From NCBI GenBank assembly GCA_009599575.1, contig VWND01000072.1, forward strand, positions 62,001 through 126,000: a stretch of 64,000 nucleotides of DNA, read 5' to 3'. This document shows, in pieces, positions 1,996 to 63,709 of this stretch. Source of the stretch: Blumeriella jaapii. Its lineage: Eukaryota > Ascomycota > Leotiomycetes > Helotiales > Drepanopezizaceae. Within the stretch, counting starts at the first letter, position 1. Every line of letters begins with the position of its first letter. Under the pieces are notes generated by a model. The model was not told where the DNA came from. It searched no databases and worked only from the letters and a program-made list of their open reading frames with translations. Both the position numbers and the translations under genes were made by a program.

Positions 1996-4900
1996 ATTTT
2001 TTTAATTAACAAACTTATCGATATTATATCGTTTCTTAAGCAAAGCGTTATTAAATTTAGCAAATTTATTTTTAATTTATTTTGGAACGGAATTATTATA
2101 CGCAATTTTTCCGAATTTAAATAAGCATATAATGCCGCTATCCCAGATTAATAAACAGTTTTCGTAAAGATATTTATAAAACAATTCGATATAATAATTA
2201 AAAACGTCAACGAATTTTTATTCGATTACGAAAACTTCGTTAAAGCTGAATTCGTTCGCAAAAGCTTTAATTACGATAAGTTTTTGCTAAATTACGACAA
2301 CGTTTTAAAAGCTTTCGCCGGAGCAAAAAAAGCTCGAAATAATAAAAAGAAAATAACAGACCGAGTATTGCGCTTTTTATTAAATCAACGAAAAAAAAAT
2401 ATTTAAAAATACGTTTTTAATAAAATCACCGGTATTATTTTATTTCGGCATTTCGTTCGCTTTTTCGAAACTATTATTTTTAAAAAAAAAGTTTGAATAT
2501 TAAACGCTTATATTTTTAAAACGCAAGCTCTGAAAACTAATAATTTAAAAATCCGCAAATTTATAAGTTTTTTTATAACTGTTTGCAAACTGGTCGACGA
2601 CGTTATATAATCGTAAAAAAAGTTTTAATCGGCTGCGAAACCCTAAATCTGATTTTTTTTTAAAGCAAAAAATTAAGCGTCGCTAAATGCGGCATTTTTA
2701 TACCGAACGAAAAAAACGACGTTATTTCGATATTTTAAACTTACGAAAACGAAGAAAACGAAAAGGCTAATATTATTTTCGTTTAATTCGAAAAAATACA
2801 CGTAATAATAATTAATATTTTTAAAGCAGCTAAAACAATTCGGCGACTTTTATTTTCAATTATCGAAAACGAATCCGAAAACGAAATCAAAAGCGTAATA
2901 ACAAATAATCGTTTATTCGAATATAAGAAATTTATTATATCGGTGAAAACGATTTCGGAAAAAATAAAAACAAAAAACGTAAAAAAGCGCGTCGACATTT
3001 TCGAAACATTTTTTATTCGGAAAAAAAAATTATTCGCGTCGTTAGCAAAAAAGGCACCGCGAATAAAAGCAGCCGGAAATCAACGCCGAATTATAAGTTT
3101 TAAATTAATTAATAGAAAACGCGACGATTTTACGAAATTAAATTCAAAAAACGCCGGCATTCCGAAAAAAAAAAGTTCAAACGATTCTGAATCTAACCTT
3201 TCGAAGCTAAACACGCAAACATTAAAAACGTTTGTTACGTTTAAAAACATCGTATTAATATCGCTAATATTCGAAACTTTAATAAAAGCATTTAAAATCT
3301 CGATTATTATACGATTCGACCGAAAAAGCTTAAAAAGAAATATCGAAATTATCGCGAAAAAAATTATATAAAAAATATAAAATTAAATTATCCTGTTTAA
3401 AACTTTCGCTTTCGACGACGAAACGATCCAGAAATTTTACTTCGATATTTTTATATAAAAACCAAATAAATCCGTCAGCTTTTTTTCTTTTGCTTCGAAC
3501 GAAAACTGAATTAAGCTTTTTTCGGAAAACTGTAAGTATAATACGCCAAAGCAAATAAAAAAAATTTTTAAAAACGGTGATCCGTTTTTATTCGAGCTTT
3601 TTTTTGCTAAAAAACTTCGATTTTTTAATTTCGTTTTTACAAATAATATTAACGCTAAAAAAAACGGCAAGTTTTGCTATTTTTATATATATTATTACGC
3701 GGCGTATTACGATTTAATTATAAAAAAAATTAACGTTATCGGCTTTGCTGATCGATTCGCTGCTATTAAAAATTCGAATTACGACGTATTCGAAATTAAT
3801 TTTAATAATTAATTTATATTTCGACGGAAAACTGCGAGAATTATTTAAGCGCGTGCTAAAGTTTATTTAAACTACGTAAATTTTAAAACAGATTCTAAAA
3901 CTTTTAGCGCGATTATAAAATTCGATTAAAACGTAAAAAAATAAAAGCAACGAGTATTTTCAAAAGCCGACTTTTTTAGCTTTTCGACCGAAGAAATATT
4001 TTAAAATTTATTTAAATTAAGCTGCGAATTCGTTAATTACGTAAGATTTCATAACGGAGAAAACAAGCTATTATTATATTTTATAAAAAAAAAAGTGGCT
4101 ATATATAAATATTATTTCCGACTGGTTAAAATTTAAAAAGCGCTTATAGCTTTTTTCGCTAATATGTTTTACAGTTTTATTTAATAAGCTTTTAAAATAC
4201 ATTCCGGCCTTTATTTCGCTGTTTTAATTATCCGGAACTTTGAAAACTGCCGTTTCGTGGCATATTCTGACGTTCCGATCGTTTTAAGCTTCGCTGGCTC
4301 TAACCGTATTACAGTTACAAAATTCGATATCGCCGATTTTTAAAAAAAAAAAAGAATCGAAAATCTTATCGACGCTATTTTCGACTATTACGTTTTGCTT
4401 GCATTTGTATATAATTCGGAAATAATCGAAGCTTATTTGTAATTATATTACGACGTTAAATTAATTAAAACCATTCAGAAAAATCCAGCTTTTTTATATT
4501 TTAGCGCGTTTAAAATAATGGTTTCGGCTATTTTATCGGATTACGAAACCGAAAGCTACGAAATAAAAAATAAAATGATTTTTGTTAGCTTTTCGATTAA
4601 GCAAAAGGTTTTCGTCAAATTTAAAATTTAAAAAACCGACGGCGCGATGCTAATTTATTCGAATAATTATACGGCGTAAAAATACAAAAACTACTTCGAA
4701 AACGATAATCCGATAAGCAATTTAATATTATTTATATTGCGGCGAAAGCAATTATAATATTTTCGGTGGTTTCGACTGCAAACGATTATTTTCGAATTAT
4801 TTCGTAAAATAGTTTTTTTTATAAACTTCGGAGCTTTTTTAAAAATATTCGTCGGTAAACAATCGTGATTCGATTTATTAATTTTACGCGAAGCAAAAGC

Positions 4901-6741: not shown

Positions 6742-6972
6742 TTAATAATTTAATACGTTAAATAGTTTAAATAAAATAATTAAATAATATGCGATTAAAT
6801 AAAAGTTTTCGGTTTCGTAATTGTCGATTAATAATTTATTTTCGTCGTTAATCGGCTTATTCCGATTGTTTTCGGTTAAATTTATTCGCGGTGCTAGCCG
6901 AAATAATAACGCGAATGCTTTTTCGGCCCGAAAATTAATATTTTTTATTCGCGGTGCCAGCCGAAATAGCAA
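6742..6972 (-). CDS. RNase H-integrase linker fragment with duplicated palindrome-encoded peptide, copy B
   Basis: A 76-codon open stretch of pol between RNase H and the integrase zinc region. Its N-terminal part contains the peptide (FA)LLFRLAPRI twice, and each occurrence is encoded by a 33-bp palindrome. The rest (NRNKPINDENKLLIDNY, then a hydrophobic ILFKLFNVLNY) is linker. The same open segment exists in C (13583-13813) and D (30789-31019). It is part of pol and not an independent gene. Confidence 0.65.
   Translation of the reverse strand: MLFRLAPRIKNINFRAEKAFALLFRLAPRINLTENNRNKPINDENKLLIDNYETENFYLIAYYLIILFKLFNVLNY
6884..6916 (-). repeat. 33-bp palindromic repeat, copy B linker, site 2
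   Basis: Plus text arms ATTCGCGGTGC and ATAACGCGAAT. Encodes FALLFRLAPRI on the minus strand. Confidence 0.9.
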
Positions 6973-6979
6973 CGCGAAT
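6947..6979 (-). repeat. 33-bp palindromic repeat, copy B linker, site 1
   Basis: Arms ATTCGCGGTGC and GCAACGCGAAT, loop CAGCCGAAATA. 10 of 11 arm positions pair; the best preserved example. Confidence 0.92.
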
Positions 6980-8889: not shown

Positions 8890-8922
8890 ATTCGCGATGC
8901 TATTTCGATTAATAACGTAAAT
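8890..8922 (-). repeat. 33-bp palindromic repeat, copy B PR-RT linker
   Basis: Plus text arms ATTCGCGATGC and ATAACGTAAAT; the right arm is RIP-mutated. On the minus strand it lies between protease and RT. Confidence 0.8.
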
Positions 8923-13575: not shown

Positions 13576-13608
13576 ATTCGCGTTGCTATTTCGGCTGGCA
13601 CCGCGAAT
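13576..13608 (+). repeat. 33-bp palindromic repeat, copy C linker, site 1
   Basis: Arms ATTCGCGTTGC and GCACCGCGAAT, loop TATTTCGGCTG. Confidence 0.92.
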
Positions 13609-13813
13609 AAAAAATATTAATTTTCGGACCGAAAAAGCATTCGCGTTATTATTTCGGCTAGTACCGCGAATAAATTTGATCGAAAACGATCGGAATAAGC
13701 CGATTAACGACGAAAATAAACTTTTAATCGATAATTACGAAACCGAAGATTTTTATTTAATCGCATATTATTTAATTATTTTGTTTAAATTATTTAACGT
13801 ATTAAATTATTAG
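13583..13813 (+). CDS. RNase H-integrase linker fragment with two palindrome-encoded peptides, copy C
   Basis: Open 76 codons equivalent to 6742-6972 on the other strand. It encodes LLFRLAPRI and LLFRLVPRI from two 33-bp palindromes separated by a 30-bp spacer, then NDRNKPINDENKLLIDNY and a hydrophobic end. Part of pol, not a separate gene. Confidence 0.65.
   Translation: MLFRLAPRIKNINFRTEKAFALLFRLVPRINLIENDRNKPINDENKLLIDNYETEDFYLIAYYLIILFKLFNVLNY
13639..13671 (+). repeat. 33-bp palindromic repeat, copy C linker, site 2
   Basis: Arms ATTCGCGTTAT and GTACCGCGAAT, loop TATTTCGGCTA. Separated from site 1 by 30 bp holding a perfect 7-1-7 palindrome (13621-13635). Confidence 0.9.
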
Positions 13814-21984: not shown

Positions 21985-24940
21985 CAAAAAAAGCTCGAAA
22001 TAATAAAAAAAAAATAACAAATCGAATATTACGCTTTTTATTAAATTAACGAAAAAAAAATATTTAAAAATACGTTTTTAATAAAATCATCGGTATTATT
22101 TTATTTCGGCATTTCGTTCGCTTTTTCGAAATTATTATTTTTATAAAAAAAAAAGTCTAAGTATTAAACGTTTATATTTTTAAAGCGCAAGTTTTAAAAG
22201 CCAACAATCCAAAAGCCCGTAGGTTTATAAGCTTTTTTACAGTTATTTGCAAATTAATCGACGACGTTATACAATCGTTAGAAAAAGTTTTAATCGGCTG
22301 CGAAATCCTAAGTCTGATTTTTTTTTAAAATAAAAAACTAAGCGTCGTCAAATACGGCATTTTTATATCGAAAAAAAAAAACGACGCCATTCCGATATTT
22401 TAAATTTACGACAACGAAAAAAACGAGAAAATTAATATTATTTTCGTTTAATTCGAAAAAATATACGCGATAATAATTAATATTTTTAAAACAGCTAAAA
22501 TAATTCGACGATTTTTATTTTTAATTATCGAAAACGAATCCGAAAACGAAATTAAAAACGTAATAATAAACAACCGCTTATTCGAATATAAAAAACTTAT
22601 TGTATTTATAAAAATAATTCCGGAAAAAATAAAAACAAAAAACGTAAAAAAGCGCGCCGATATTTCCGAAACTTTTTTTATTCGAAAAAAAAAACTATTT
22701 ACGTCGTTAGCAAAAAAGATACCGCGAGTAAAAATAGCCGGAAATCGACGCCGAGCTATAAGCTTTAAGTTAATTAATAAAAAACACGACGATTTTACGG
22801 AATCAGATTTAAAAAACGCCGGCATTTCGAAAAAAAAAGGTTTAAACGATTTTGAATTTAATCTTTCGAAGCTAAATACGCAAATATTAAAAACGCTTGC
22901 TGCGTTTAAAAACATCGTATTAATATCGCTAATATTTTAAATTTTAATAAAAGCATTTAAAATCTCGATTATTATACGACTCGACCGAAAAAGTTTAAAA
23001 AAAAATATCGAAATTATCGCGGAAAAAATTACGTAAAAAGCATAAAATTAAATTATTTTATTTAAAACTTTCGCTTTCGACGACGAAACGATTTAAAAGT
23101 TTTATTTCGATATTTTTATACAAAAACCAAATAAATCCGTCAGCTTTTTTTTTTTTTTTTCGAACGAAAACTAAACCAAGCTTTTTTCGGAAAATTGCAA
23201 ATATAATACGCCGAAACAAATAAAAAAAACTTTTGAAAACGGTGACCCGTTTTTATTCAAGTTTTTTTTCGTTAAAAAACTTCGATTTTTTAATTTCGTT
23301 TTTACGAATAATATTAATACTAAAAAAAACGGCAAGTTCTGTTATTTCTACGTGCGCTATTACGCGGCGTACTGCGATTCAATTATAAAAAAAATTGACG
23401 TTATCGGCTTTGCTAATCGATTCGCGGCTATTAAAAATTCGGATTACGATATATTCGAAATTAATTTTAATAATCAATTTATATTCCGACGAAAAACTGC
23501 GAAAACTATTTAAGCACGTATTAAAGCTTATTTGGGCTACGCAAATTTTAAAGCAGACCTTAAGGTTTTCAACGCGATTATAAAATTTAATTAAAACGTA
23601 AAAAAATGGAAGCAATAAGTATTTTTAAAAGCCGATTTTTTTAGCTTTTCGATTAAAAGTATATTTTAAAATCTATTTAAATTAAGCTGCGAATTCGTTA
23701 ATTACGTAAAATCTTATAACGGAAAAAATAAGTTATTGCTGTATTTTATAAAAAAAAAAATAGCTATATACAAATACTATTTCCGATTGATTAAAACTTA
23801 AAAGGCGCTTATAGCTTTTTTCGCTAATATATTTTATAATTTTATTTAATAAGCTTTTAAAATGCATCCCGGCTTTTACCTCGCTGCTTTAATTATTCGA
23901 AACTTTGGGAACTGCCGCCTCGTAGTATATTTTAACGTTCCGATCGCTTTAGGTTTCGCTGATTCCGACCGTATTATAATTACAAAATTCGATATCGCCG
24001 ATTTTTAAAAAAAAAAAAAAATCGAAAACTCTACCGACGCTATTTTCGATTATTACGTTTTGTTTGTATTCGCATATAATTCGGAAATAATCGAAGCTTA
24101 TTTGCAATTATACCACGACGCCAAGCTAATTAAAACCATTTAAAAAAACTTAGTTTTTTCGTATTTTAGCGCGTTTAAAATAATAGCCTCGGCTATTTTA
24201 TCGGATTACGAAACCGAAGGCTACGGAATAAAAAATAAAATAATTTTTATTAGCTTTTCGATTAAGCAAAAAGTTTTCGTTAAATTTAAAATTTAAAAAA
24301 CCGACGGCGCGATATTAATTTATTCGAATAATTATACGGCGCAGAAATACAAAAACTATTTCGAAAACGATAATTCGATAAGCAATCTGATATTATTTGT
24401 ATTACGGCGAAAACAATTATAATATTTTCGGTAGTTTCGATTGCAAACGATTATTTTCGAATTATTTCGTAAAATAGTTTTTTTTATAAGCTTCGGAGTT
24501 TTTTCAAAAGCATTCGTCGGCAAATAACCGTAGTCCGACCTATTAGTTTTACGCGAAGTAAAAGCGTTAATCGATTTTAATTACAACGAATTAATCGATT
24601 ATTTTTACGATTTTAATATAAAATTTTTCAATGCTTTTTGCAAAGCGTAAAATCACGTTTAAAAGCTGAAATTTATTATTTACGAAAAAAAATCGTAAAA
24701 AATATTCGTCGCTGCGACGTTTGATAATATTATCGACGAAAAAGCTATTAAAACGTTCGTAAATTTAAACGATATTTCGATTAATATTTTATTAAGCTAT
24801 TTTTCAAAAAAGCAAAATAAATAAAATAATTTAAACGATAAGCGAAACGTTATTCCTCCGCAGAAGCCAACAGCAAAAAGGCTAAAAACGGGTTAAAAAA
24901 CCGAAAAAATATAAAGTTAAAAAGTTCGGTTTTTAATTAA
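21985..24940 (+). pseudogene. Extra ORF (aORF), family 1 copy C, remainder after element L
   Basis: Continues the frame broken at 16003. Key blocks are DDVIQSLEKVLIGCEIL (near 22260), ENESENE (near 22530), a palindrome-encoded LFTSLAKKIPRV (near 22693), FFNFVFTNNINTKKNGKFCYFY (near 23286), RFAAIKNSDYDIFEINF, SDRIIITKFDIADF (near 23966), DAIFDYYVLF and SDYETEGYG (near 24202). Unlike copy A there is no frameshift between these blocks, only stops, so the ancestor was one long ORF. It ends in a Lys/Gln-rich tail near 24940. No known family is assigned. Confidence 0.62.
22697..22729 (+). repeat. 33-bp palindromic repeat, copy C extra ORF
   Basis: ATTTACGTCGT arm, loop TAGCAAAAAAG, arm ATACCGCGAGT. 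Same site as 3032-3064, with transitions. Confidence 0.82.
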
Positions 24941-25042: not shown

Positions 25043-25309
25043 TATAAAACGGTAATATTTTGTATTAATAAAAATTAATAATTTTAATTATAGTTAAGAT
25101 ATGGACTTTTTTAAAACCTTCTGCTATTAATTATTTTTAATAAATATAAAAGCAAAGCATTCTTTTAAATAATATTATAAGCACGCAGTTTAATTTATAC
25201 TTTTATTTATTTTTCTTTTCCTTTTTTCAATTTCTTCTAGGGATTTCCTAGATTATTTTATTCACCGATATATGGCCGTATCAGTTTGGTTTTTCTATCT
25301 ACTTTTATA
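25043..25309 (+). repeat. 3' LTR of family 1 copy C
   Basis: 267 bp, TATAAAACGG to CTACTTTTATA, heavily RIP-mutated. It faces the left LTR of D across 4 bp and so forms the arm of a large inverted repeat. Confidence 0.9.
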
Positions 25310-25313
25310 ATAG

Positions 25314-25580
25314 TGTAAAAATAAATAGGAAAACCAGATTAATACGGCCATATATCGGTAAATAAAATAATCTAGGAAATCCCTAGAAAAGATTAAAAAA
25401 AGGAAAAAAAAAATAAATAAAAGTATAAATTAAACTGCGTGCTTATAATATTATTTAAAAGAATGCTTTGCTTTTATATTTATTGAAAATAATTAATAGC
25501 AAAAGGTTTCGAAAAAGTTTATGCTTCGATTATAGCTAAAATTATTAATTTTTATTAATATAAAATATTACCGTTTTATA
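25314..25580 (-). repeat. 3' LTR of family 1 copy D
   Basis: 267 bp, TGTAAAAATAAATAGG to CCGTTTTATA in plus-strand text. Preceded by the ATAG duplication. Confidence 0.92.
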
Positions 25581-25680
25581 TTTTGTTTTAAATAATATAC
25601 GTAATCGTTTTTAATTACGATTAAAAAAAAATATAATTTTAATAAATGCAATTTAATTTATTTTATATAATTTAAAAATC

Positions 25681-28600
25681 AATTAATTAAAAACCGAATT
25701 TTTTAATTTTATATTTTTTCGGTTTTCTAATTCGTTTTTGGCTTTTTTGCTGTTGGCTTTTGCGAAGAAATAGCGTTTCGCTTATCGTTTAAATTATTTT
25801 GTTTATTTTGCTTTTTTGAAAAATAACTCGATAAAATATTAATCGAGGTATCGTTTAAATTTACGAACGTTTTAATAGCTTTTTCGTCGATAATATTATT
25901 AAGCGTCGCTGCGACGAATGCTTTTTACGATTTTTTTTCGTAAATAATAAATTTCAGCTTTTAAACGTAGTTTTACGTTTTGCAAAAGGCGTTAAAAAGT
26001 TTTATATTAAAATCGTAAAAATAATCGATTAATTCGTCGTAATTAAAACCGATTAACGCTTTTGCTTCGCGTAAAACTGATAAATCGAATTACGGTTGTT
26101 TATCGACGAATGCTTTTAAAAAAGCTTTAAAGCTTGTAAAAAAAATTATTTTACGAAATGGTTCGGAAATAATCGTTTGCAATCGAAACTACCGAAAATA
26201 TTATAATTGTTTTCGTCGCAGTATAAATAATATAAGATTGCTTATCGAATTATCGTTTTCGAAATAGTTTTTGTATTTTTGCGTCGTATAATTATTCGAA
26301 TAAATTAGTATTACGCCGTCGGTTTTTTAAGTTTTAAATTTGACGAAAACCTTTTGCTTAGTCGAAAAGCTGATAAAAGTTATTTTATTTTTTATTTCGT
26401 AGTTTTCGATTTCGTAATCCGATAAAATAGCCGAGGCCATTGTTTTAAACGCGCTGAAATACGAAAAAGCTAAGCTTTTTTAAATAGTTTTAATCAATTT
26501 GGCGTCGTAGTATAATTGCAGATAAATTTCGATTATTTCCGAATTGTATACGAATGCAAATAAAACGTAATAATCGAAAATAGCGTCGGTAAGATTTTCG
26601 ATTTTTTTTTTTTTTTAAAAATCGGCGATATCGAATTTTATAACCGTAATACGGTCGAAACTAGCGAAACCTAAAGCGATCGGAACGTTAAAATATATTA
26701 TAAAGCGGCAGTTTTTAAAATTTCGAATAATTAAAACAGCGAAATAAAAGCCGGAATGTATTTTGAAAGTTTATTAAATAAGGTTATAAAATATATTAGC
26801 GAAAAAAGCTATAAACGCTTTTTGAGTTTTAATTAATCGGAAATAATATTTATATATAATTATTTTTTTTTTTATAAAATATAATAATGGTTTGTTTTTT
26901 CCGTTGTAAAACTTTACGTAATTAACGAATTCGCAATTTAATTCGAGTAAATTTTAAAAAACATTTTCGGTCGAAAAGCCAAAAAAGTCGGCTTTTAAAA
27001 ATATTCGTTGTTTTTACTTTTTTACGTTTCAGTCGAGCTTTATAATCGCGCTAAAAGTTTTAGGATTTGTTTTAAAATTTGCGTAGCTTAAATAAATTTT
27101 CGCACGCGTTTAAATAATTTTCGCAGTTTTTCGTCGGAATATAAATTAATTATTAAAATCAATTTCGAATACGTCGTAATTCGAATTTTTAATAACAGCG
27201 AATCGATTAGCAAAACCGATAACGTTAATTTTTTTTATAATTAAATCGCAATACGCCGCGTAACAGCGTATATAAAAATAACAGAATTTGCCGTTTTTTT
27301 TAACGTTAACGTTATTCGTAAAAACGAAATTAAAAAATCGAAGTTTTTTAGCGAAAAAAAGCTCGAATAAAAACGGATTACCGTTTTTAAAAGTTTTTTT
27401 AATTTGCTTTAGCGTATTATATTTGTAATTTTTCGAAAAAAGCTTGGTTTAATTTTCGTTCGAAGCAAAAAAAAAAAAGCTAACGAATTTATTTGATTTT
27501 TATATAAAAATATCGAAATAAAATTTTTAAATCGTTTCGTCGTCGAAAACGAAAATTTTAAATAAAATAATTTAATTTTATACTTTTTGTATAATTTTTT
27601 TCGCGATAATTTCGATATTTTTTTCCAAGCTTTTTCGATCGAAACGTATAATAATCGAAATTTTAAATGCTTTTATTAAAATCTGAAATATTAGCGATAG
27701 CGGTACGACGTTTTTAAATACAATAAGCGTTTTTAATATTTGTATATTTAGTTTCGAAAAGTTAGATTCCGAATCGTTTAAGTTTTTTTTTTTCGGAATA
27801 CCGGTGTTTTTTAAATTTAATTTTGTAAAATCGTCGCGTTTTTTATTAATTAGCTTAAAATTTATAATTTGACGTCGATTTCCGGCTGTTTTTATTCGCG
27901 GTGTTTTTTTTGCTAACGACGTAAATAATTTTTTTTTCCGAATAAAAAAAGTTTCGAAAATATCGACGCGTTTTTTTACGTTTTTTGTTTTTTTCGAAAT
28001 TATTTTTATAAATATAATAGGTTTTTTATATTCGAATAAGCGGTTGTTTGTTATTACGCTTTTAGTTTCGTTTTCGAATTCGTTTTCGATAATTAAAAAT
28101 GAAAATCGCCGAATTATTTTAGCTGTTTTAAAAATATTAATTATTATTACGTATATTTTTTCGAATTAAACGAAAATAATATTAGCTTTTTCGTTTTTTT
28201 CGTCGTCGTAAATTTAAAGCGTTAAAATAGCGTCGTTTTTTTCGTTTAATATAAAAATGCCGTATTTAACGACGCTTAATTTTTTGCTTTAAAAAAAAAT
28301 CAGATTTAAGATTTCGCAGCCGATTAAAACTTTTTTTAACGATTGTATAGCGTCGTCGATTAATTTGCAAACAGCTGTAAAAAAGCTTATAAACCTGCGG
28401 GCTTTTGAATTATTAGCTTTCAAAGCTTGCGCTTTAAAAATATAAACGTTTAATATCCAAACTTTTTTTTTAATAAAAGTAATAATTTCGAAAAAGCGAG
28501 CGAAATGCCGAAATAAAATAATACCGGTGATTTTATTAAAAACGTATTTTTAAATATTTTTTTTTCGTTAATTTAGTAAAAAGCGCAAAACCCGGTTTAT

Positions 28601-28960
28601 TATTTTTTTTTTTTTTTCGAGCTTTTTTTGCTTCGGCGAAAGCTTTTAAAACGTTATCGTAGTTTAGCAGAAATTTATCGTAGTTAAAGCTTTTGCGAAC
28701 GAATTCAGTTTTAATAAAGCTTTCGTAATCGAATAAAAATTCGTTAACGTTTTCAGTTATTATATCGAATTGTTTTATAAATGTTTTTACGAAAATTGTT
28801 TATTAATTTAAAATAACGGTATTATATATTTGTTTAAATTCGGAAAAATTACGTATAATAGTTCCGTTTTAAAATAAATTAAAAATAAATTTGCTAGGTT
28901 TAGCAACGCTTTGTTTAAAAACGATATAATATCGATAAATTTATTAATTAGAAAAATGTA
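25681..28960 (-). pseudogene. Extra ORF (aORF), family 1 copy D
   Basis: Minus-strand frame of about 1,090 codons with RIP stops but without the two deletions seen in A. It is in frame across the blocks compared with C. Visible blocks are RFLLNQRKKNI, KITGIILFRHF, VLIGCEILNLIFF, ENEFENETKSVITNN, a palindrome-encoded LFASLAKKTPRI (near 27890-27930), NGKFCYFYIR, RFAVIKNSNYDVF, KFDIADF and YDELIDYFYDFN. The composition is Lys/Asn/Ile/Phe-rich partly because of RIP. It is not similar to gag, pol or any env that I know. Same strand as pol and downstream of a spacer. Confidence 0.62.
27894..27926 (-). repeat. 33-bp palindromic repeat, copy D extra ORF
   Basis: Plus text arms ATTCGCGGTGT and ACGACGTAAAT. 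Third copy of the aORF site. Confidence 0.82.
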
Positions 28961-29500
28961 TTATATTTGTTAAAAAATAAAAAAGCAAAAGTACGAAAAT
29001 TGTAAAATATTTATATCCAAAAGCCACGGGAATTCGCATGCTGTTTTTTTAATAAATTATAATTATTTAAATAAGTATTCGTTCAGAATAACGAAAAAAA
29101 TAAACAGCGCAGAAAATAGCAAATAATAAAATGTATAAAAAATAGTTTTCGTAAAATATACGAATAATATAAATATATTAAATATACGGCTTAAATATAT
29201 ATAAAGCTTTTGTTTTAATAAACAAAAAATACAATTAAACAAAAAAAAATATAATAAGTGTTTTAAATAATATAAAAAAAGGTTTTAAAAATAAACAGTT
29301 TGTATATAAGCAAAGCAAAACAAAAACAATAGAATAGTATATAATAAAAAAAAAAATAATAAATAATAAAAATAATAAAACAATTAGTAAACAATTTTAT
29401 AAGCATTTTTTTTTTCGGTTATAAATAAAATTACGATTTAAATTATAATTTTAGCAGCAAAATTATTATTCGGTTGTTTTTAAATTATTTCAAAAAGTTT
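28961..29500 (-). other. Spacer between extra ORF and pol, copy D
   Basis: AT-rich noncoding spacer equivalent to 1541-1995, containing alternating TATA/T-rich runs. No gene seen. Confidence 0.5.
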
Positions 29501-30788
29501 TTTTTTTTTCAGAAATATAATCGCTTTGGTCGGAATCGTCGTCGGATTCGCTGAAATCGGAATCGCTTTTTGATTTAAAATCCAAAAGATAAATTTGCTG
29601 GTTTTTTTTGTAAAATCGCTTTAACCGGTTGGCGGCGAACGTTTTTTTCAGTTTTGTTTTATCGAGTTTCGTAAACTTATAATAACTTTTATTTAATTCG
29701 GCCTCGTATATTTCGTAAAATCCGAGCCATTTATAATTAAGTTTAGTATCGGCCGATTTGTCGATAGCGCGCTAAACGTCGTAAATTAAAATCAGATTTT
29801 TTTTTTTAATTAGCGTTTTTTTTTAAATTTTAGTTTTATTTTAAATTTTTTTAGCTGCTTTTTTATATTTTTTTTTTTTTAAAATTATTTTTTTTATATT
29901 TATATTTCGATAATTTAATTATTTAAATTTTATTATTAATAAATCCGCTTTCGTTTTTATTTTAATTACGTTATAAAGCTTTTATATAAGCTATTTTGTT
30001 TTTAGAAATAATCGAACGTTTTTGCCGTATTATATAAAAAATAGAATTATTTTAATAAAAGCGTATATATATATACGTATAGCGAAAAGCATTTCCGAAA
30101 ATTTTCGCGATTAACGTTTATAGCTTTTTCGAATAACTTTTAAAAAGCCGTCGAAAATATTTTTATAACTTCGTTTAACGAATCCGTTGCTTTTCGAATT
30201 ATAAATTAAAATTTAAATACGCTAGATTTTGTATTTTTTTATAAAAGTTTCGATAACGCTTTTGTTTTCGAATTTATTATCGACGTTTAATTTGCTAAAT
30301 AAACCGTATTAATATATAACGTTTTTTTAAAAAAAAATCGTTATAATTTCGGAAATAACGTTTCGGAAAAGTCGCTTTTTAAGCTATTTAAATAAATCGT
30401 TAATAACGAATACGAAGCATATATAACCGCGATCGATAATTAATACGCGTATAACGTCGAAATTGATTTTTTCTTAAATTTTAAAAAATTATATCGGATA
30501 TAATAAATTTTCTTTTCGGCCAGATTTTCGTTTTTAATAAAAAATGCAGTTTTTAACGAAAGCTTTGCAATTTTCGAAGTATTTTTTTTATTAAAAATCG
30601 TTTTTGATTCGGTAATAAATAGCTTTAGTTTTTTTATAAAACACTTTTTCGTAGGTTTTTTTTATAATTTAAAACTTATCGATTTTATTATTTATTATTA
30701 AGCGTTTTTAATATATATTGTTTTTTATTTTATATAGCTTTTTATCGGCTAAAATATAATCAAAAGTCTGGTTTTTAAATAATTTAAA
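29501..30788 (-). pseudogene. Integrase, family 1 copy D
   Basis: Minus-strand integrase with the same layout as copy A. The zinc region lies near 30540-30660, the core lies near 30140-30520, and the GPY/F module and acidic Ser/Asp tail lie near 29520-29770 (KLNYKWLGFYEIYEAELNKSYYK and NRLKRFYKKNQQI). RIP stops throughout. Confidence 0.75.
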
Positions 30789-31019
30789 CTAATAATTTAA
30801 TACGTTAAATAATTTAAATAAAATAATTAAATAATATACGATTAAATAAAAGTTTTCGATTTTGTAATTATCGATTAATAATTTATTTTCGTCGTTAATC
30901 GGCTTATTCCGATCGTTTTCGGTTAAATTTATTCGCGATGCTAGCCGAAATAATAACGCGAATACTTTTTCGGCCCGAAAATTAATATTTTTTATTCGCG
31001 GTGCCAGCCGAAATAACAA
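30789..31019 (-). CDS. RNase H-integrase linker fragment with two palindrome-encoded peptides, copy D
   Basis: Open 76 codons. Contains LLFRLAPRI and LLFRLASRI, each encoded by a 33-bp palindrome, separated by KNINFRAEKVFA. Equivalent to 6742-6972 and 13583-13813. Part of pol. Confidence 0.65.
   Translation of the reverse strand: MLFRLAPRIKNINFRAEKVFALLFRLASRINLTENDRNKPINDENKLLIDNYKIENFYLIVYYLIILFKLFNVLNY
30931..30963 (-). repeat. 33-bp palindromic repeat, copy D linker, site 2
   Basis: Arms ATTCGCGATGC and ATAACGCGAAT. Followed by the 15-bp palindrome TTTTCGGCCCGAAAA at 30967-30981. Confidence 0.9.
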
Positions 31020-31026
31020 CGCGAAT
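30994..31026 (-). repeat. 33-bp palindromic repeat, copy D linker, site 1
   Basis: Arms ATTCGCGGTGC and ACAACGCGAAT, loop CAGCCGAAATA. Confidence 0.92.
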
Positions 31027-31029
31027 GAT

Positions 31030-32935
31030 TTTGGTTTTATAAAATCAAAAGCGTAAATAACGAAGCAGCCGATTTCGTCAGCGATTTATTCGTTGATATT
31101 TTATTCGTTTTGTTTAGCGAAATCAAACGGATAGAAACGTTTCCGTTTAAAAAAGCCGTTTGCCGTTATATTAATTGTTTTTTTAATATATTTGATTTCG
31201 AAGTTTATAAATCGTATTTAAACTATTTAATTAATAACGAATGCTTTTAATAAATTATTAGCTTTTTTATTTAATTAATCGATAAGAATTTTCGCGTTTG
31301 TTTTTAAAATAAAATATACGCCGTATAATTCGCTTTTTATTTTTTTTATTATTTTAAAAGCGCTTCGATATTTTCGTTTGATAATATCGTAATATATTTC
31401 CGCGAAGGATTATAAATCGCTTTCGAATCGTAAAAAATATTATTTTTTGTTTTTATCGATTTGTTATAATATAGTTTCTTAATCGAAAATATTAGCGTCG
31501 ATAATCAAAATGATTTTTTTTGCGTTTGGGCTGTAATCGATCCGCATAAGCGATAAGGCCGATAAAAGATCGTTTTTAAAAATTTTTATAATTTTATTTT
31601 GTTTTTTTTTCTAAACGAAATCGACTTTTTTTTTTATCGTAACGTAAATAAATACAGTTTTTTATAAAAAGTTTTTAATTTAATTACGATAATAAATTAT
31701 AACGCTAATAAAAGCTTTGGCTTCGGTAATATTTTTACATTTTTTTTATTCGCAGATTTTCTTAATTTTTTTTCGTTAAAAATAGCGGCTAGCGCTGTTA
31801 ATTATATAACCGACGATATTTATTTCGAATATACAAAATTTTAATCGAAAGCTAATAATAGCTTTAGCTTTTTCGAAACAAATTATAATTTTGTCGATGT
31901 TTTAAATATGTTTTATTATATAACGTCGAATTTTAAAAAAGATTTTTTTATTATTATAATATAATTTAAAACTTTTTATTCCGACGTCGTTAACGTAAAA
32001 CAAAGCAATATCGAAAATGCAAATTATAAAAATTTTATATACGATTTTTACGAATTAAACGATTAAATTAATAATTTTTATAAGTATTTTCGTTATACGT
32101 AATAAACCGATTAAAATTTAAATTGCTATTATATTTCGAAATCGTAAATTAAATATTAAATGATCGTAGTTTAAAAACAAATCGAAAAAAAAAGCGATTA
32201 TTAATTTTGCGAATTCGTTTGAAAATTAATCGACGTTAAATAGCACGTTAGCGTTTCGTATCGTTATTTTATTTATTTCGACGATTGCGATAATAAATTT
32301 ATAAATACTTTTTTTTTTTTTCGCAACGATAAACTATTTGTTTTTATATAGGTCGTGGCAGAATTCGAAAATTTTTTGTTTAATTTGTTTTTTTAATATT
32401 TCGATTATTTTATTTTAAAAAGTTTTGAAAATTAAAAAAGTTTTTTTTTGCCAGGCTTCGTAAAATACGGTTTTAATATCGATATGAGGCGTAACGTTAA
32501 AATTGAATTAGCTTATTTCGGTAAAATCGAAAGCTATAGCTTTTTTTCGGTTGCGTAGAATTTCGTACAAAATTTTTTTTTTTTTAACAAAAATTAGGTT
32601 CCGATTATTAAATTATTAAATCGTTTTTTTATAAATCGGCTGTTAAATAATAAATTGAAAAATCGGCCGGTAATAAATCTTTCGAATTCGCTAATAATTG
32701 GTTAAAATAATCTTATTGCTTCGTTTTTTTCGAATTAATCGTTTATTTTTTCGAAAATATTTTTATCGGATTCGCTAAGATTTACGAATCGTATTTTATT
32801 AGCTTTGCGCTTATAAAAAATGCTAATATTAATATAAAAAAGTAAAATATATAGGTCGGATTTATTTAATACGAAAACGAAATCTTCGGAACTTTTATTT
32901 CCGAATTAATAATTAAAAATATTAATATTAATTAA
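31030..32935 (-). pseudogene. Reverse transcriptase-RNase H, family 1 copy D
   Basis: Minus-strand blocks: EFCHDLYKNK, FIVAKKKK, FIIAIVEINKITIRNANV, FFDLFLNYD, then ALFYVNDVGIKS near 31985-32011 (YVDD to YVND). The RT connection INIVGYIIN follows, then RNase H DYSPNAKKIILIIDANIF near 31500, FESDL, KRKYRSAFK and TANGFFKRKRFYPF near 31150. This is the standard Ty3 order; multiple RIP stops. Confidence 0.78.
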
Positions 32936-32939
32936 TTTT

Positions 32940-32972
32940 ATTCGCGGTGTTATTTTGATTAGTAACGTAAAT
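32940..32972 (-). repeat. 33-bp palindromic repeat, copy D PR-RT linker
   Basis: Arms ATTCGCGGTGT and GTAACGTAAAT. Encodes FTLLIKITPRI on the minus strand. Confidence 0.8.
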
Positions 32973-33227
32973 GCTTTTAATCGAATATTTTCCAGGTTTT
33001 GTTATAATCTAGCGTTTATTTTAAAACTAAAGCCGGCTATTCGTTTTTCGATAAAACGTCGATTAAAAAAATTTTGTCGCCGGCGACGGTGATTTGCTTT
33101 TAAAAAAACCGGTTTTAGTTTCAAAAAAAAGCTTTTATTTGGCCGTTTTCGGTATATTTGAAATTAACGAAACTTTCCAAAATTTAAAATATTTTAAAAA
33201 TAATAAAATAAAAGCATTTTTTTATTA

Positions 33228-33524
33228 TTAAAAATTTTTTATAAATAATAATATTTTAACGTCGATTTTTATATTTCGTATAATTTTATTAAATTCAATC
33301 GTATTTTTATTAACGATAATATAAATTATTCGCTTATCGATAATAATCGAAATATTATTAGTTTCGGCTGTTTTTTGGTTTATATAATTAATTTCGGCTT
33401 TATTATCGAATAAAGCAAAAGCGGTCGTATTTTTTTTAAATATTGTTTTTATTTTTAATGTTTTTATAACCGTGTAGAAGTAATTTCGTCGTTTTGATTT
33501 TTGGGTTTTTATGGCGAGAGCCAA
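33228..33524 (-). CDS. Aspartic protease region, family 1 copy D (open 98 codons)
   Basis: Counterpart of 9134-9475. AFALFDNKAEINYINQKTA aligns with the ALxDSGAEINYI pattern; the catalytic Asp is kept and SG changed to NK. Lies between gag and RT on the minus strand. Confidence 0.7.
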   Translation of the reverse strand: MALAIKTQKSKRRNYFYTVIKTLKIKTIFKKNTTAFALFDNKAEINYINQKTAETNNISIIIDKRIIYIIVNKNTIEFNKIIRNIKIDVKILLFIKNF

Positions 33525-33559
33525 AAAGCTGACTTTTTCCGAGGATTTCTTTTCGTCGG

Positions 33560-35549
33560 CTAAATTAATTACGATATTATAAATTTTTTTTTAATTTTTT
33601 TTTAATTTAAAATCGTTTTTTTTTCGGATAATTTTAATTTTTTCGTTTTTTTTTAATATAAAAATTTATTTATTAATAACTTTGTCGAATCTTTTTTTTG
33701 TATTAAATAAGTCGTTAAATTTCAATTTAATTTTTTATTTTATAATTTTTTTAATAATTTCGTCGACGGCTTCGAAGCTGATATATTTGTCGATTTATTT
33801 TTCGCTTCGTATTAATAATAGGCGTTCAAAAACTGGTATTTTCTGAATGATTTAAATCGGAATATCGGTGTCGATATTTTTTATATCGTCGTTAATTTTT
33901 TTTATTATAAGCGTTTTTTTAATAATTTTATCGAATTTTTTTCGAATTTCGAAATCTTTTTTTTTTTCGATTCTAACGTTTTTTTTTATATCAGCTGATT
34001 TAGCGAATAAAACAAAAGCATTTTGCTTTTTTATAATTCGCTGGCTTAATTATATAATTATAATATTTGCAAATGCGATATTTATATTAATAATATATAT
34101 ATTTGTTTTTCATTTATATATTTGAATTTTATTTACGCTTAGAATAAAAGTTTTTTTTTTGATTAATACGTTTTCGAAAATATTTTCTTTTTTATTAATA
34201 AAAATCGTTTTTGCATTTTTTTTGTTTTTTAAGCAATCGTTCCATTTTGTATTTTTTATTTTTAAGCGAATAATATTTAACCAGCTTTGATTTTCAGCTT
34301 TGTTAAAAGGGTTTATTTCCGCTTCCGTCGGTCCGAAGCAAATCGTTCCGTATTTGTTAATATAACAGATATTATTATTTATACAAAAATTAAATGTTTT
34401 GTATTTTAAGCGAATATAAGATTTTTCGTAATAAATTTTTTTATTATTACAAAATTTATATTTAGGGCTACGGAATTTGTTTTAATAATTATTTTTATTA
34501 TTTTAATAGCCGCGATTTTGGTTTCCGCGTTAGTTTTCTTTTTTTTTCTAATAATCGTTATTATAATTAATATTCCGCTAATTCTGATCGCTAATACGAA
34601 GAAATTGCTATTGGACAGTTATTATTTTTACGGTAGCTTAGCGAAATTAATCGCTTCGTGCATTTTAAAAAAAGTAGTTATTATAAAAGCTATTTTAATT
34701 GTTTTTATTATCCGAATTAATATATAAAAGTTTTTTCTGCTATTATATAAAACCTTCGATTTTGTTTTAAAGTTTTTGAATTTTAATATCGGTAAATTTT
34801 AATACGAAAATTTCGATATTTTTATTAAGCTTTTCCAAGCCAATAGATTTTGCAAAATAATTAAATAATATAATCATTAGTTGTTTTTTAGCGATTTCGG
34901 TAATTTTTAGCGGCTGGACATGTTTTTGCATTAAAGCTTTCACGTTTTTTTTGTAAATAAAAAAAGGAGATTTCTTTTAGTTTATAGCTTTAATAATACG
35001 TTCGTTTTGATTTTGCTTAAAAACGAATTTTACAAATTTAAAATACTAATCGAAAGTTTCAGAGTTTTGTTTATTAATTTTAAAATGCTTAATGGTTTTG
35101 TTGCGAATGCTAGTTGAAAGGCTAAATAAAAACAATTTTTTTTATTTAATTTCGTTTAAAAACTTTTTATTAACGAAAACGTTAAAAACTTTCGTATAAA
35201 TACGATAATAAGCTTTAAGTTTTTTAGCTTAGCGAATTATTATAACAAATTGTTTAAAAAAAGCGATAATATCGCGAATTTGCTAGCGATCGTGGTTTCG
35301 GAACTTCGATTTCAAAGCTTTAATTAATTTACGTTAGTTTCGAGCCTTAATAGCTTTTTATTTATTTATCGATTTGATAATATTTTTAATGGTTGGGTCA
35401 TAATAGCAAGAAAGTTTGTCGAACATTTTAATTTTAAAAACTTCGAAATTTTTACAGGTTTTTTTATATTTTTCGATAAAATCGGTAACGTTGGCGCCAT
35501 TAAATAAAAATGCATTAAAAAAGTTAAGAAAAGGCATGCGGCCTCGCAT
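33560..35549 (-). pseudogene. gag, family 1 copy D
   Basis: N-terminal open block at 35358-35549 (MRGRMPFLNF then LFNGANVTDFIEKYKKTCKNF) is a capsid-type start; the likely initiator is the second Met. The downstream frame is broken by RIP stops. A Cys/Tyr-rich zinc-binding-like patch lies near 34310-34480 (FCNNKKIYYEKSYIRLKCKAF and NKYGTICFG). Plus-strand open stretches at 33868-34125, 34518-34727 and 35416-35619 are antisense shadows. Confidence 0.65.
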
Positions 35550-36319
35550 AAAAAAACGAAAAGCGTCGTTGTTTATAATATTAACGAAAATGTTAATAAA
35601 ATTTGAATTAAATAAATAAATGTTTTCTAGAATTGTAAATTAAAGGTTTTTAATATAAAAAAAATCGTTTTTAATAAGGGAATTATTAAAAAGGTTTTTA
35701 TGTTTTTTAAAAAAATTAAATAAAATAAAATTACGTCCAGATATTTAAATAGCGTATTAAAAAATTTGTTTTTTGATAAATTAATTGAATTGATATAATA
35801 TTATTATATAATCCACGGTTTCGATATTCTGTGGTTTAAGTTAATATACGTACAGTTATTTTTTTATTATTTTTAATAAAAAGCCGCAAATTGTAATTAT
35901 TATAATTACAAAGCGTAAAATCAAAAAATTAAGTTTTCGCCAAGCGTTTAATTAAAAGAGATTTAATTTAGAAAAGCCGAACGCGGCGGTCGAAACGTAC
36001 GAACTAATATTCGATTTGTTATTTTTAAACAAAAAAGCGATTTTCGAACTTTAAATTTCGTACGGTTCAGAATTGCTTAACCGTAATTTCAAACGTTTTT
36101 AAAATATATTGCATTTTTGTAATTTAATAATTATGCGCAAAATAAAAAAAGCTATTAAAAATCTTTTATATAATACAGCTGCGAATAATATTATATAAAA
36201 AGTTTTTAAGCCGTAATAGCGAAATATCGAAATCGATTTTAATTATGAATTTAAAAAATATATCGGCGAATATATAAAAACGAAACACCGGAGTTTAAAT
36301 TTTTGCGTAAATTATTAAA
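35550..36319 (-). other. 5' leader of family 1 copy D
   Basis: About 770 bp noncoding leader between gag and 5' LTR, matching 11493-12264 of B in length and sequence. The primer-binding site is expected at its right edge but is not identified. Confidence 0.5.
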
Positions 36320-36586
36320 TGTAAAAATAAATAGAAAAACCAAACTGATACGGCTATATATCGGTAAGTAAAATAGTTTAAGGAATTTTTAAAAAAAACT
36401 GAAAAAAGGAAAAAAAGAATAAATAAAAGTATGAATTGGACTGCGTGCCTATAGTATTATTTAAAGAAATGCTTTGCTTTTATATCTGTTGAAAATAGTT
36501 AGTGGCAGGGGGTTTCGGAGGGGTTTATGCCTCGACTATAGCTAAAACTACCAACTCCTATTAATACAAGGTATCACCGTTTTACA
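36320..36586 (-). repeat. 5' LTR of family 1 copy D
   Basis: 267 bp, TGTAAAAATAAATAG to CACCGTTTTACA in plus-strand text. It retains the GGCAGGGGGTTTCGGAGGGG segment (36503-36522), which is degraded in the 3' LTR of the same element. It is followed by ATAG. Confidence 0.92.
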
Positions 36587-37283: not shown

Positions 37284-37316
37284 ACTTGCGGTGCCAATTT
37301 CGATAGCGACGCTAAT
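37284..37316 (+). repeat. 33-bp palindromic repeat, family 2 copy H
   Basis: Arms ACTTGCGGTGC and GCGACGCTAAT, loop CAATTTCGATA. Orientation relative to coding is opposite to that in family 1. Confidence 0.82.
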
Positions 37317-37349
37317 GGAATAATACAAAAAATTACACCATCTTCCCAA

Positions 37350-48256: not shown

Positions 48257-48261
48257 CTGAA

Positions 48262-52700: not shown

Positions 52701-53379
52701 CAGCTTAAAAGTGTATGCAATAATCTGGCAGATGGAAATTGGGTAAGCAGTAAATTAAAAGATTCGTTTTCGAATTAGTCGTTTGGAAAGTTCAGAAGAA
52801 GGTTGCTTATCTGAATTATCGATTATATTAAGCTGAAAGGCTATCGCGGCGAAAGCTTTTTTTCGGTTTTTAATATAATTGTTTTTCGTAAAACGAGGAA
52901 GCTGTTTTGACGAAAGGAAAAAAGAAAAAAAAGAAATAACAGAAGAGGGATCGTCAGCCTAAAAAGGTAATAATGTGATTTTTTATATTATTCTATTAGC
53001 GTCGCTATCGAAATTGGCATCGCGAATGAAATTCGATTTTTTCGCGCTTCGCACAGCGTCGTAGGTCTGCTATAATTAATTAAAGTTTTTATTACGTTTC
53101 ACAGCGTCGTTTTGATGGCGAAATTGAATTTTTCGGAGATATAAATAAAAAATTTTAATATAACGAACGTAAAAAACTGTAAAAAGGTAAAACTTCGGCC
53201 AATAAAGCTTGCGTTTATTACAGTTTAATAAAACTTAGTGTTCGGCCAACCAAGCTTTTTTTAGAATTATATTATAATTTCCGAGATTGATAATTAAAAA
53301 AAAAGTAAACGATTGTATTCGGTTGTTAATAATAAGATTAAAAAGCGTAAAATATATAATTAAATAGCCACGAGTTTTA
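52701..53379 (-). pseudogene. PR-RT linker of pol, family 2 copy F
   Basis: Continues pol upstream of element I (NAANQLL-independent region). Reads WLAEH, LLNCNKRKLYWPKFY and SAKKSNFI in related copies, then the 33-bp palindrome at 52995-53027 and a Lys/Pro-rich segment. No catalytic motif. Confidence 0.55.
52995..53027 (-). repeat. 33-bp palindromic repeat, family 2 copy F
   Basis: Plus text arms ATTAGCGTCGC and GCATCGCGAAT, loop TATCGAAATTG. Confidence 0.87.
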
Positions 53380-58087: not shown

Positions 58088-58356
58088 TATGACGATTCAT
58101 TCTGTTGCCACCTCTCGTGTCACCCCAGCAACTACGTATAGCTGCAAGCTCCCTGGTCTCCTAGTGGGTCTCCCTATCAATTGTGGAAACTATTTATATA
58201 TATAAAGCTCTTTCTTTTTAGCAATTTCTGCCTTTTGCAATTATTAATTTTAAATAAATATTTTTATTACAAAACCAAAAGCTCGTTTTTTATATTATAT
58301 AAATACGGCGATTAATTAACTGATTTCTCAGCCTTTCGACTGATTAAATCGTTATA
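58088..58356 (+). repeat. 5' LTR of family 2 copy K
   Basis: 269 bp, starting TATGACGATTCATTC (from TGTGACG) and ending AATCGTTATA. It carries one 28-bp unit (58126-58153) where F has three, which accounts exactly for the 56-bp length difference. Only the first ~110 bp are free of heavy RIP. Confidence 0.92.
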
Positions 58357-58756
58357 TTATTAACAATTTTTTTTTTACGCTGGCGACAGCGTAAATTATT
58401 TCTTTTTTCGAATTCCTTACGGATTATACTAAAATAATCGACCGGTCGTGAAAAAACCTATTTCCGCACTTCGCGAAAAATGGCTTTTGTTCAACGATTC
58501 TTCCTTTAGCAAAGCTTTTCAGCTTTTGCTATTACATCTTAATTTTTCTTTTTTTAATCAGCGAAAAAGCAATTTTTTCCAAAAGCTTTTTTTTTTAAAA
58601 AACAATCCTTCCCCCGAGAAAAAAAAAACAAAAGAAAAGACAAAGCGCCAACTATTTCGCCTGCCACTTTTTTTTTGCAGCTTAGCGCTGAAAGCGTTCA
58701 GTTGAAACTTTTGCAAAATTAACTGAAAAAAGCGCAAAAGCGTAAACGATAATTCT
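58357..58756 (+). other. 5' leader of family 2 copy K
   Basis: About 400 bp; the open stretch 58448-58705 is Lys/Phe-rich and not homologous to a known Gag, so it is treated as leader. No other feature. Confidence 0.45.
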
Positions 58757-59990
58757 TAAAGATTATACGATTGCGACAAATCTTTTAATTAAAGCGTTTG
58801 ATAGAATCTATCGAACGTGCTTCTGCCAGTCGCGAATCTACTGCTTTTCCTTTTTTTCGTAATGTTTTATTTTAACTAACAAACGCTGCAAACCAACCTT
58901 TACGCTTTTCGCGAATTCTTTTTAAATCTTTTTTTAACGGCCAAAACCTTAGCGCGCCTTTTAAACGCTATAATTTCCATTTATCTGCTGATTTTCGATT
59001 AGCTCGCATAAAACGCGTTCCGAATCTTAAGTTTAAACTAAATAATAATAAAAATTACAAAGCACGCTATTAAAAAACTAAAGTTTTCGACAACTTCGAA
59101 TTTTACCACGATTATTTCGCTAACGATCGATTTCGTAAAAATTACATATTCGATCAGACCGAAAGCGTAGCAAAAAAGTTTCTGACCTCGCGTATTTTAA
59201 ACCGTTCCGATTTTACATTTTTCGAAAAATTAATAAAAAAAGTCGCCGATTTTCTAGCCGATTTTTTAAACGTTTAAAAAGCGAAAAACGAATTCAAAAT
59301 GCTTATAATAAATACGTACGACGATTTTTAGCGTTTTTATCTGCGATTTTTCATTTTCGTAGCGAACGCTTAAATACGAATTAATAAATAGCTTCGAAAC
59401 GCTTTTCGCGATAAAATACCAAAGCGTTTACAAGAAAAGTTGCACTTGGAATAAGCGCGTACAACGATTTTTAAAAATTAATTTACCGCCGTCCGATAAA
59501 AAAAACAAAATTAATTAGCTAAACGAATTTTATACGCAAATCGTTTTTTAACCAAGTTTACCATTTATCAAAATAGTAAGTTTTTAATCAAAGCGTATTA
59601 CGAATTAAATCGTACGTACGAAAATCGTTCAAATGCTTTATAAGCTTTTTTTTAACCTTTTGTTTTTCTTTTTTTTTTACGCCAAAACGCCCCCTTTGGC
59701 GTTTTTTTTTTTCGATCGGACCAACGACAACGTTTATTTTTTATTTTATATTAAAAAGTTCGAAGTCAATTTGCACGATCTTTTACGAGCCGATCCTCGG
59801 TTCTATCCAAAAGCCCTTTTAGGCTGGTAAATGTAAACGAGGTCGAACCGGCCGAAAATTCGCTTTTTAATAATAATAATAAAAACGAAAATTTTTTTTC
59901 AAACGATTTTCAAAACGCATACGAGAAAATTAAAAGCTTTTCCGCTAATCGAGGAAACGCCCAAGCCTAAGCAAAACCTTTTTCTTAAGC
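58757..59990 (+). pseudogene. gag, family 2 copy K
   Basis: Collinear with F gag. IIEIYRTCF-region remnants near 58800, FDNFEFYHDYFANDRFRKNY near 59085, and the open stretch 59633-59830 with FFYAKTPPLAFFFFDRTND and EVNLHDLLRADPRF. It continues towards PR with a basic stretch. RIP-stopped. Confidence 0.55.
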
Positions 59991-59993
59991 GTA

Positions 59994-60185
59994 TTGCGCG
60001 ATATGCGTTATTTTAACGTTCGAAAGCTTTTTAATAGCGATTTATTAACAATTTCCGTTATATTTATTAAAAATGGCCTTTTGTACAAAGTGAAAGCGCT
60101 CGCCGATTTTAAAGCGAACGGTTATACGTTAATCGATTCGGCGCTGATTAAATTCTTTTTTTTTTTTTTAAAACTTTTGATTTAA
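59994..60185 (+). CDS. Aspartic protease region, family 2 copy K (open 63 codons)
   Basis: MRDMRYFNVRKLFNSDLL, then KVKALADFKANGYTLIDSALI. Active-site Asp present; SG changed to FK as in H. Confidence 0.68.
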   Translation: MRDMRYFNVRKLFNSDLLTISVIFIKNGLLYKVKALADFKANGYTLIDSALIKFFFFFLKLLI

Positions 60186-62040: not shown

Positions 62041-62440
62041 TTTTATATTAGCCTTTATTACTGTATCAATTCTATAATATTACAGGCAAAACCTTTCTTG
62101 CATATTAGAAACTGACGCTTCAGACGGCGTAATAGCTTTTGTGCTTTCGCAACTTTATAATAACGACTGGCTCCCAGTCGCTTATTTCAGCAAAACCATA
62201 GCTTTCGCAGAACTGAACTACGTCGTATACGATAAAGAAATATTCGCAATCGTAAAATCTTTAAGCAATTTTCGTATTAAATTAATTAATTTAATTTATC
62301 AGATTAAAATTATTACTAATCATAAGGTTTTAAAATACTTTATAACTTTCAAACTTAAACGTTCGATAAGCACGCTAGGCCGAGCTTTTCGCCGACTATA
62401 ACTTTTTTATTATATATAAACCAGGTAAATATAATCTTTT
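62041..62440 (+). pseudogene. RNase H, family 2 copy K (open 86 codons at 62141-62401)
   Basis: ETDASDGVIAFVLSQLYNND near 62108-62165 keeps the first Asp. LPVAYFSKTIAFAELNYVVY and DKEIFAIVKSLSNF carry the catalytic Glu; TNHKVLKYF follows. Best preserved family 2 RNase H in the window. Confidence 0.78.
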
Positions 62441-62507
62441 GACTGACGCATTAATACGTCGTACGAGCGAACTCGACCGTCAAAATTCTTTTAAACGCAT
62501 CTAGCGT

Positions 62508-63705: not shown

Positions 63706-63709
63706 CGAT

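Follow-up and report, generated by a model that had tools for sequence, protein, structure and literature searches.

Five unrelated positions in the coding DNA of two Ty3-like LTR retrotransposon families of Blumeriella jaapii, here called R1 and R2, carry a 33-bp imperfect palindrome lying in the host reading frame. Four of the positions are in R1, where all copies share one frame and orientation, and the fifth is in R2, where the unit is antisense to its open reading frame and yet resembles one of the R1 units at the DNA level; as far as we have searched, the palindromes are confined to these two families. We describe them as in-frame palindromic inserts of LTR retrotransposons.

The window, by which we mean the whole 64,000-nucleotide stretch analysed here, occupies positions 62001–126000 of contig 70; the assembly searched comprises 47.4 Mb in 91 contigs. 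In a random genome sample of twenty 10-kb pieces (200 kb), gene-like blocks have a GC content of 41–57% and repeat-like blocks 25–35%. The window has a GC content of 28%, a (CA+TG)/(AC+GT) ratio of 0.66, CpG at 3.1 times expectation and CA/TG at 0.49, values that we take to be the marks of RIP. One host protein of this genome shows 77% identity to Drepanopeziza brunnea, and 70% to both Marssonina coronariae and Diplocarpon rosae, which places the host among the Helotiales, close to these species. The two retrotransposon families are represented by the following copies:

25309..36584, minus strand: R1, most complete copy in the window of the first Ty3-like family, 11.3 kb, RIP-mutated
58126..64000, plus strand: R2, partial copy of the second Ty3-like family, recognised by its Pfam domains

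R1 is a dead retrotransposon family. Its direct terminal repeats (25314–25578 and 36320–36584) are about 265 bp long and 81.5% identical, and the only Pfam domain seen is RNase H, with matches at 31260–31520 on the minus strand that lie under the cut-off. A related Pol protein from a metagenome, P0001, has 38% identity to R1 across 94% of a stretch of 1010 residues, and it aligns to 32827–29601 on the minus strand, spanning the RT, RNase H and integrase. In R2, RVT_1, RT_RNaseH and RT_RNaseH_2 are found over their cut-offs, and SH3_Tf2-1 and Integrase_H2C2 under them. The features that define a Ty3-like element, LTRs and the Pol order protease–RT–RNase H–integrase, are thus seen in R1 through its terminal repeats, P0001 and a protease motif, and in R2 through its Pfam matches. 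Self-alignment suggests that the R1 and R2 copies of the window are nested within one another. Two further features lie among them: a small and little-mutated one at 46163–48258, with 173-bp direct repeats that are 98.8% identical and a 359-amino-acid frame matching Retrotrans_gag, which is probably a recent non-autonomous LTR element; and a 1.35-kb insert within an R2 copy (51350–52695), with 204-bp direct repeats that are 99% identical and a GC content above that of its surroundings.

The preliminary description gave fourteen starts for the 33-bp unit, all of which are correct: at each, ends resembling ATTCGCG and CGCGAAT delimit a unit of 33 bp. It also counted at least five non-homologous sites, and we agree, as the flanks sort the fourteen into positions A, B, C and D in R1 and position E in R2:

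3032..3064, plus strand: position A, R1 extra ORF; arms 33 bp apart
22697..22729, plus strand: position A; arms 33 bp apart
27894..27926, minus strand: position A, inside the R1 copy at 25309–36584; arms 33 bp apart
6884..6916, minus strand: position B, R1 RNase H–integrase linker; arms 33 bp apart
13639..13671, plus strand: position B; arms 33 bp apart
30931..30963, minus strand: position B; arms 33 bp apart
6947..6979, minus strand: position C, R1 RNase H–integrase linker, 63 bp before B in the coding sense; from the full-pattern search
13576..13608, plus strand: position C, the site that headed the preliminary description; from the full-pattern search
30994..31026, minus strand: position C; arms 33 bp apart
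8890..8922, minus strand: position D, R1 protease–RT linker; FTLLIEIASR in the coding sense
32940..32972, minus strand: position D; arms 33 bp apart
37284..37316, minus strand: position E, R2 protease–RT linker; antisense to R2 coding if read in the R1 orientation
52995..53027, plus strand: position E; arms 33 bp apart
60573..60605, minus strand: position E; R2 coding strand plus, peptide IRGANFDSDAN

The coding order in R1 is D in the protease–RT linker, C and then B in the RNase H–integrase linker, and then A, which lies about 1.7 kb past the last P0001-aligned residue, in an extra open frame. B and C, separated by 63 bp, may not be independent of each other. R1 continues for about 4 kb beyond its integrase region (25309–29600), and it is here that two copies (2787–3371, plus strand; 27578–28165, minus strand) have the extra open frame, of 194–195 amino acids, which is basic around site A and has no Pfam match at E 0.1. 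We note also that a nested R2 copy (LTRs at 37348–37673 and 55234–55560) is inserted in its R2 host 21–32 bp from palindrome E (window 37317–37348).

If no more than one of the 14 outer arm bases may differ, nine pairs at 33 bp and two at 65 bp are present in the window, the latter being formed by a C site and a nearby half-site; two mismatches admit three further single pairs, at 35, 44 and 47 bp. The proposed architecture is 11+11+11, but the shared part is nearer to 13 bases, 8 variable ones and 12 bases, with A-rich right edges. Nor do the arms generally pair at about ten of eleven positions, as had been thought: Watson-Crick pairs number 5–10 of 11 per site, with 0–3 G-T pairs in addition, and only two C copies reach 10; these arms are terminal inverted repeats of the kind that MITEs have. 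An asymmetry of the arms recurs across the classes, with T and then Y at positions 8–9 on the left and AC or AY on the right. The loop of D (TAATCGAAATA) corresponds to that of C on the opposite strand, with differences that are transitions only, and the arm asymmetry is not flipped with it. No target duplication is apparent in the flanks of the five positions, which are blurred by RIP and age and offer no empty site for comparison.

The recurrence of the unit is out of the ordinary. The full pattern has two exact matches in the window and none in 100 shuffles, and with up to three mismatches it yields 1300 + 1183 matches in the genome (where a site may count on both strands), as against none for the reversed control; when all 14 outer arm bases must match, at a separation of 19, the genome has 1083 sites and the reversed control gives none. 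The unusual feature is the presence of the same arms at five unrelated places, not palindromy; an excess of inverted repeats as such was rejected, with 36 in the window and 11–42 in ten Markov controls. In an all-against-all comparison of 33-mers from R1, R2 and R3, the last of which has an unrelated motif, C and B agree at 30 positions, D and A at 26 of 33, and A–E, C–E and D–E at 25. Because unrelated or ordinary 33-mer pairs also reach 26/33, single pairs other than C–B carry little weight in RIP-mutated DNA. The comparison of E in a less mutated R2 copy (L046) with A in L007 is stronger, with agreement at 32 of 38 bases and 28 for the next best pair, and all of 40 Markov-simulated L046 controls fall under this score (maximum 30/38). 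E agrees with C at 28/38 and with D at 27/38, neither of which is over the controls, so that the link between R1 and R2 depends mainly on E–A and the shared arms.

The unit had been proposed to be a dispersed mobile repeat, and this was not borne out by three exclusion searches of the 47.4-Mb assembly. A pattern leaving out the known loop types gave no exact-arm sites, and two patterns demanding a flank base absent from the R1 positions gave six rows each, corresponding to nine distinct sites, each of them set in R1 flanks; sites that have A at −3 and at +3, whose outer arms are mutated, or that lack T at position 8 escape these searches. The 200 random kb contain ten sites with no more than two mismatches, every one at positions A–E. 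In exact-arm sites the loop length is constant at 11: a scan for total lengths of 34–64 bp produced five rows, of which one is an A-type site of 34 bp and the other four are unrelated, as against two rows in the control. Current genome-wide mobility was rejected, since neither the exclusion patterns nor the random pieces gave a new locus, as was an origin shared with bacteria or viruses, a tolerant pattern having no exact matches in one scan each of prokaryote and IMG/VR collections. The alternative named at the outset, that the motif is old shared pol sequence, agrees with its confinement to two families and its presence in all copies scored, but the five positions lack homology with one another and such sequence does not explain it. 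At one of the nine distinct sites (L041, contig 17, at about 481670), another LTR-like sequence, starting TGTAACGATC, directly abuts the right side of the D palindrome.

The reading frame in use is open at all fourteen sites, as expected of eleven stop-free codons, but the further claim that either orientation is open fails, with one to three of the six frames stopped per site. In one R1 copy (L045), D, C and B share the RT frame, and in L046 E shares that of the protease and RT. Comparison of 8 + 20 + 20 + 8 + 6 distinct copies shows that the R1 peptides, FALL-IEI-APR, FALL-FRL-APR (C and B) and FASL-AKK-APR, plus mutated variants, are all read in one frame and orientation as FA[L/S]L-xxx-APR. 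E in the R2 sense is IRGANFDSDAN, and read backwards it is LASL-SKL-APR-I, near to the FASL-AKK-APR-I of A; the suggestions that R1 and R2 carry the unit in opposite coding orientations, and that its likeness is one of DNA and not of protein, are thus both upheld. Because E is antisense to its ORF, the R1 peptide cannot keep it alike. The R1 arms agree even at synonymous positions, and the three middle codons differ wholly. The inversion of the loop between C and D, and the likeness of E to A in spite of its orientation, favour copying of DNA, whereas the shared frame and orientation of the R1 copies, roughly 2–6% by chance, leave room for a peptide role. Among 127 related Pol proteins (8 plus the best 120 of 244, one in common), none matches five loose expressions for the encoded peptides. 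Linker anchors are recognisable in 80 of the 127, with linkers of 18–125 residues, some of them mis-anchored, and one of 81 in R1; in 77 proteins no repeat of the palindrome-peptide kind connects the linkers. These proteins were rejected as a source of empty sites, the linker variation being too great to place 11 residues.

Alleles without the 33 bp were sought with probes of joined flanks (220 bases), scoring the best 40 places for each. Full-span copies number 39 at E (249–266 bp; best 40 of 684 candidates), with one other split by 33 bp, 38 at D (245–253 bp; best 40 of 481) and 39 at A (246–259 bp; best 40 of 473). No scored copy at A, D or E is empty, and hence neither clean insertion nor target duplication is demonstrable. 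With the B/C probe (best 40 of 475), 36 of 40 copies span 284–288 bp and keep both palindromes, and four (L047–L050) span 218–223 bp and are without 63 bp, equal to one palindrome and the 30-bp spacer. In each of the four, a single 33-mer lies between the left flank of C and the right flank of B, and a tree of 24 flanks, itself of low support, does not group them. The third codon of L050 is TCG, like that of A and E, where C and B have TTG or TTA. We read this pattern as probable repeated slippage between the direct copies B and C, although the four could be relics of a single-palindrome ancestor that preceded the second copy. One apparently empty R1 copy, on contig 76, to which P0001 aligned through the RNase H–integrase linker, was discarded: both palindromes, B and C, are still present, and the part lost is about 73 bp farther along.

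The history that we propose, and to which we give as much credence as doubt, is that of an old palindromic cassette of 33–40 bp that was duplicated in frame among the R1 linkers, moved a single time, in inverted orientation, between R1 and R2, and thereafter spread only as a passenger. A 33-bp imperfect palindrome, extending perhaps to about 40 bp with A/T-rich edges, would have been copied as DNA into linker-coding parts of R1, namely the protease–RT linker (D), the RNase H–integrase linker (C and B) and the extra ORF (A), each copied piece adding 11 codons where the proteins may tolerate extra residues; a single inverted transfer would connect R1 with the R2 protease–RT linker (E). We infer the direction of this transfer and the order of events, as well as the copying step, presumably template switching by reverse transcriptase during reverse transcription. 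The complementary arms would serve as microhomology that flips the loop, allows either orientation and deletes one of two direct copies. The palindromes would then have reached fixation in the ancestor of each family, been carried to more than 1000 sites as passengers, and all been mutated by RIP. Template switching through the arms would explain the confinement to retroelements, the loop inversion, the antisense transfer and the slippage, but alone it does not predict that all R1 copies have a common frame and orientation. The agreement of D with A (26/33), no better than that of the best unrelated pair, and that of E with C or D (27–28/38), no better than the controls, also weigh against this history, and insertion itself was not observed, there being no intermediate, donor or empty allele in the R1 and R2 copies scored. 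In a bolder and somewhat unlikely version, the arms of a fold-back cassette would let reverse transcriptase copy, invert and delete it, so that it takes over polyprotein linkers inside an element and jumps between co-packaged families with no transposase.

Several other explanations can be considered. It is fairly unlikely that the peptide K-x-FA[LS]L-xxx-APR-I is kept in R1 for a role in the polyprotein, as a flexible spacer or protease processing site separating protease, RT–RNase H, integrase and extra ORF, with the palindrome a by-product of codon choice and E a non-functional antisense capture. Positions A–D do share one frame and orientation, most copies have the K two residues before and the I after, and three of the sites are at polyprotein linkers; as about four of the six frames of an unmutated unit are open, chance agreement is roughly estimated at 1.6% for four independent copies and 6% for three. 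This role does not account for arms that are alike at synonymous positions around three wholly different middle codons, for the lack of any match in the 127 Pol proteins or of any such repeat in the linkers of 77, for the location of A in an extra ORF away from a known cleavage boundary, or for E. An extinct and independent miniature palindromic element, entering the coding DNA of both families by itself or through a host transposase, would accord with the occurrence of one unit at five unrelated places in both coding orientations and with the in-frame outcome known for Rickettsia palindromic elements (PMC10969869). We consider it distinctly unlikely, because no site beyond R1 and R2 appears in the exclusion searches or in 200 random kb, no target duplication is visible at the five positions, and we judge the arms too short for a known transposase terminus.

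A cis-acting function, either as a dyad for a dimeric DNA-binding protein or as an RNA hairpin used by the elements, is suggested by arms two helical turns apart and by more than 1000 copies, but seems very unlikely. The hairpins are ordinary, six 63-nt stretches having z-scores of −0.3 to −2.1 with 5–67 of 200 shuffles equally or more stable, on which grounds a special RNA hairpin was rejected; pairing is often broken, and the number of copies per element differs (four and one). The A arms vary no less than their flanks (0.122 vs 0.112) and the D arms hardly less (0.129 vs 0.142), and selection on the arms in present copies was rejected on this comparison; the lower arm variation in B and C stems from copies partly chosen by exact arms. 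Finally, CpG-rich, CpA-poor words that survive RIP might resemble each other by chance, and the window's composition (CpG 3.1 times expected, CA/TG 0.49), its unenriched inverted repeats and the unrelated 33-mers that reach 26/33 are all compatible with such an artefact. It is nonetheless scarcely credible, given exact arms at one spacing at 1083 genome sites with none in the reversed control, the 32/38 agreement of L046 with L007 over 40 of 40 controls, and 200 random kb without an arm pair at unrelated sites.

The palindromes bear comparison with several known systems. Rickettsia palindromic elements are about 150 bp long, in ten families, and present in bacterial host genes of many kinds (PMC10969869). 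The likeness lies in palindromic units in frame at unrelated protein-coding sites and tolerated as extra residues (PMC10969869); the fungal unit differs in its 33-bp length, its occurrence in only two retrotransposon families and its lack of any sign of recent movement. The analogy drawn in the preliminary description is fair as to outcome but not as to activity, and presence in many unrelated genes was not seen, the exclusion searches giving no locus outside R1 and R2. The GC clusters of yeast mitochondria are short palindromic GC-rich pieces in AT-rich DNA, mostly intergenic and polymorphic between strains (PMC4464245), which also enter the VAR1/rps3 reading frame and alter its length (PMC4464245). 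The fungal palindromes, by contrast, are nuclear and lie, as far as searched, only in transposon coding DNA, and every copy scored at A, D and E has one. As the dispersal and the empty sites that define these systems were looked for and not found, we do not file them as members of either. MITEs and bacterial REP sequences are likewise short inverted repeats in many copies, but amplification of the host retrotransposons explains the present copies here, no target duplication is visible in their RIP-blurred flanks, and no free-standing copy was found. Direct-repeat deletion and template switching occur in retroelements. The 4 of 40 copies scored at B/C that have lost one repeat together with the spacer resemble products of the former; the gain of palindromes at unrelated sites, once inverted, which we tentatively attribute to the latter, would not be an ordinary outcome. 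In the open-licence PMC literature, searched with specific wordings, no account of palindromes lying in frame within nuclear LTR retrotransposons came to light.

If the palindromes are only an old internal duplication, they are a tidy fossil of intra-element copying. If the proposed history is true, they would be the equivalent, in a eukaryotic nucleus, of palindromes inserted in frame elsewhere, carried by retrotransposons and probably also made by them. They would show how the linkers of a single polyprotein can come to share duplicated short peptide modules, and how unrelated elements can exchange such modules, even in inverted form. The B. jaapii genome, with about a thousand copies, would then be one in which arm-mediated loss and loop inversion could be counted.
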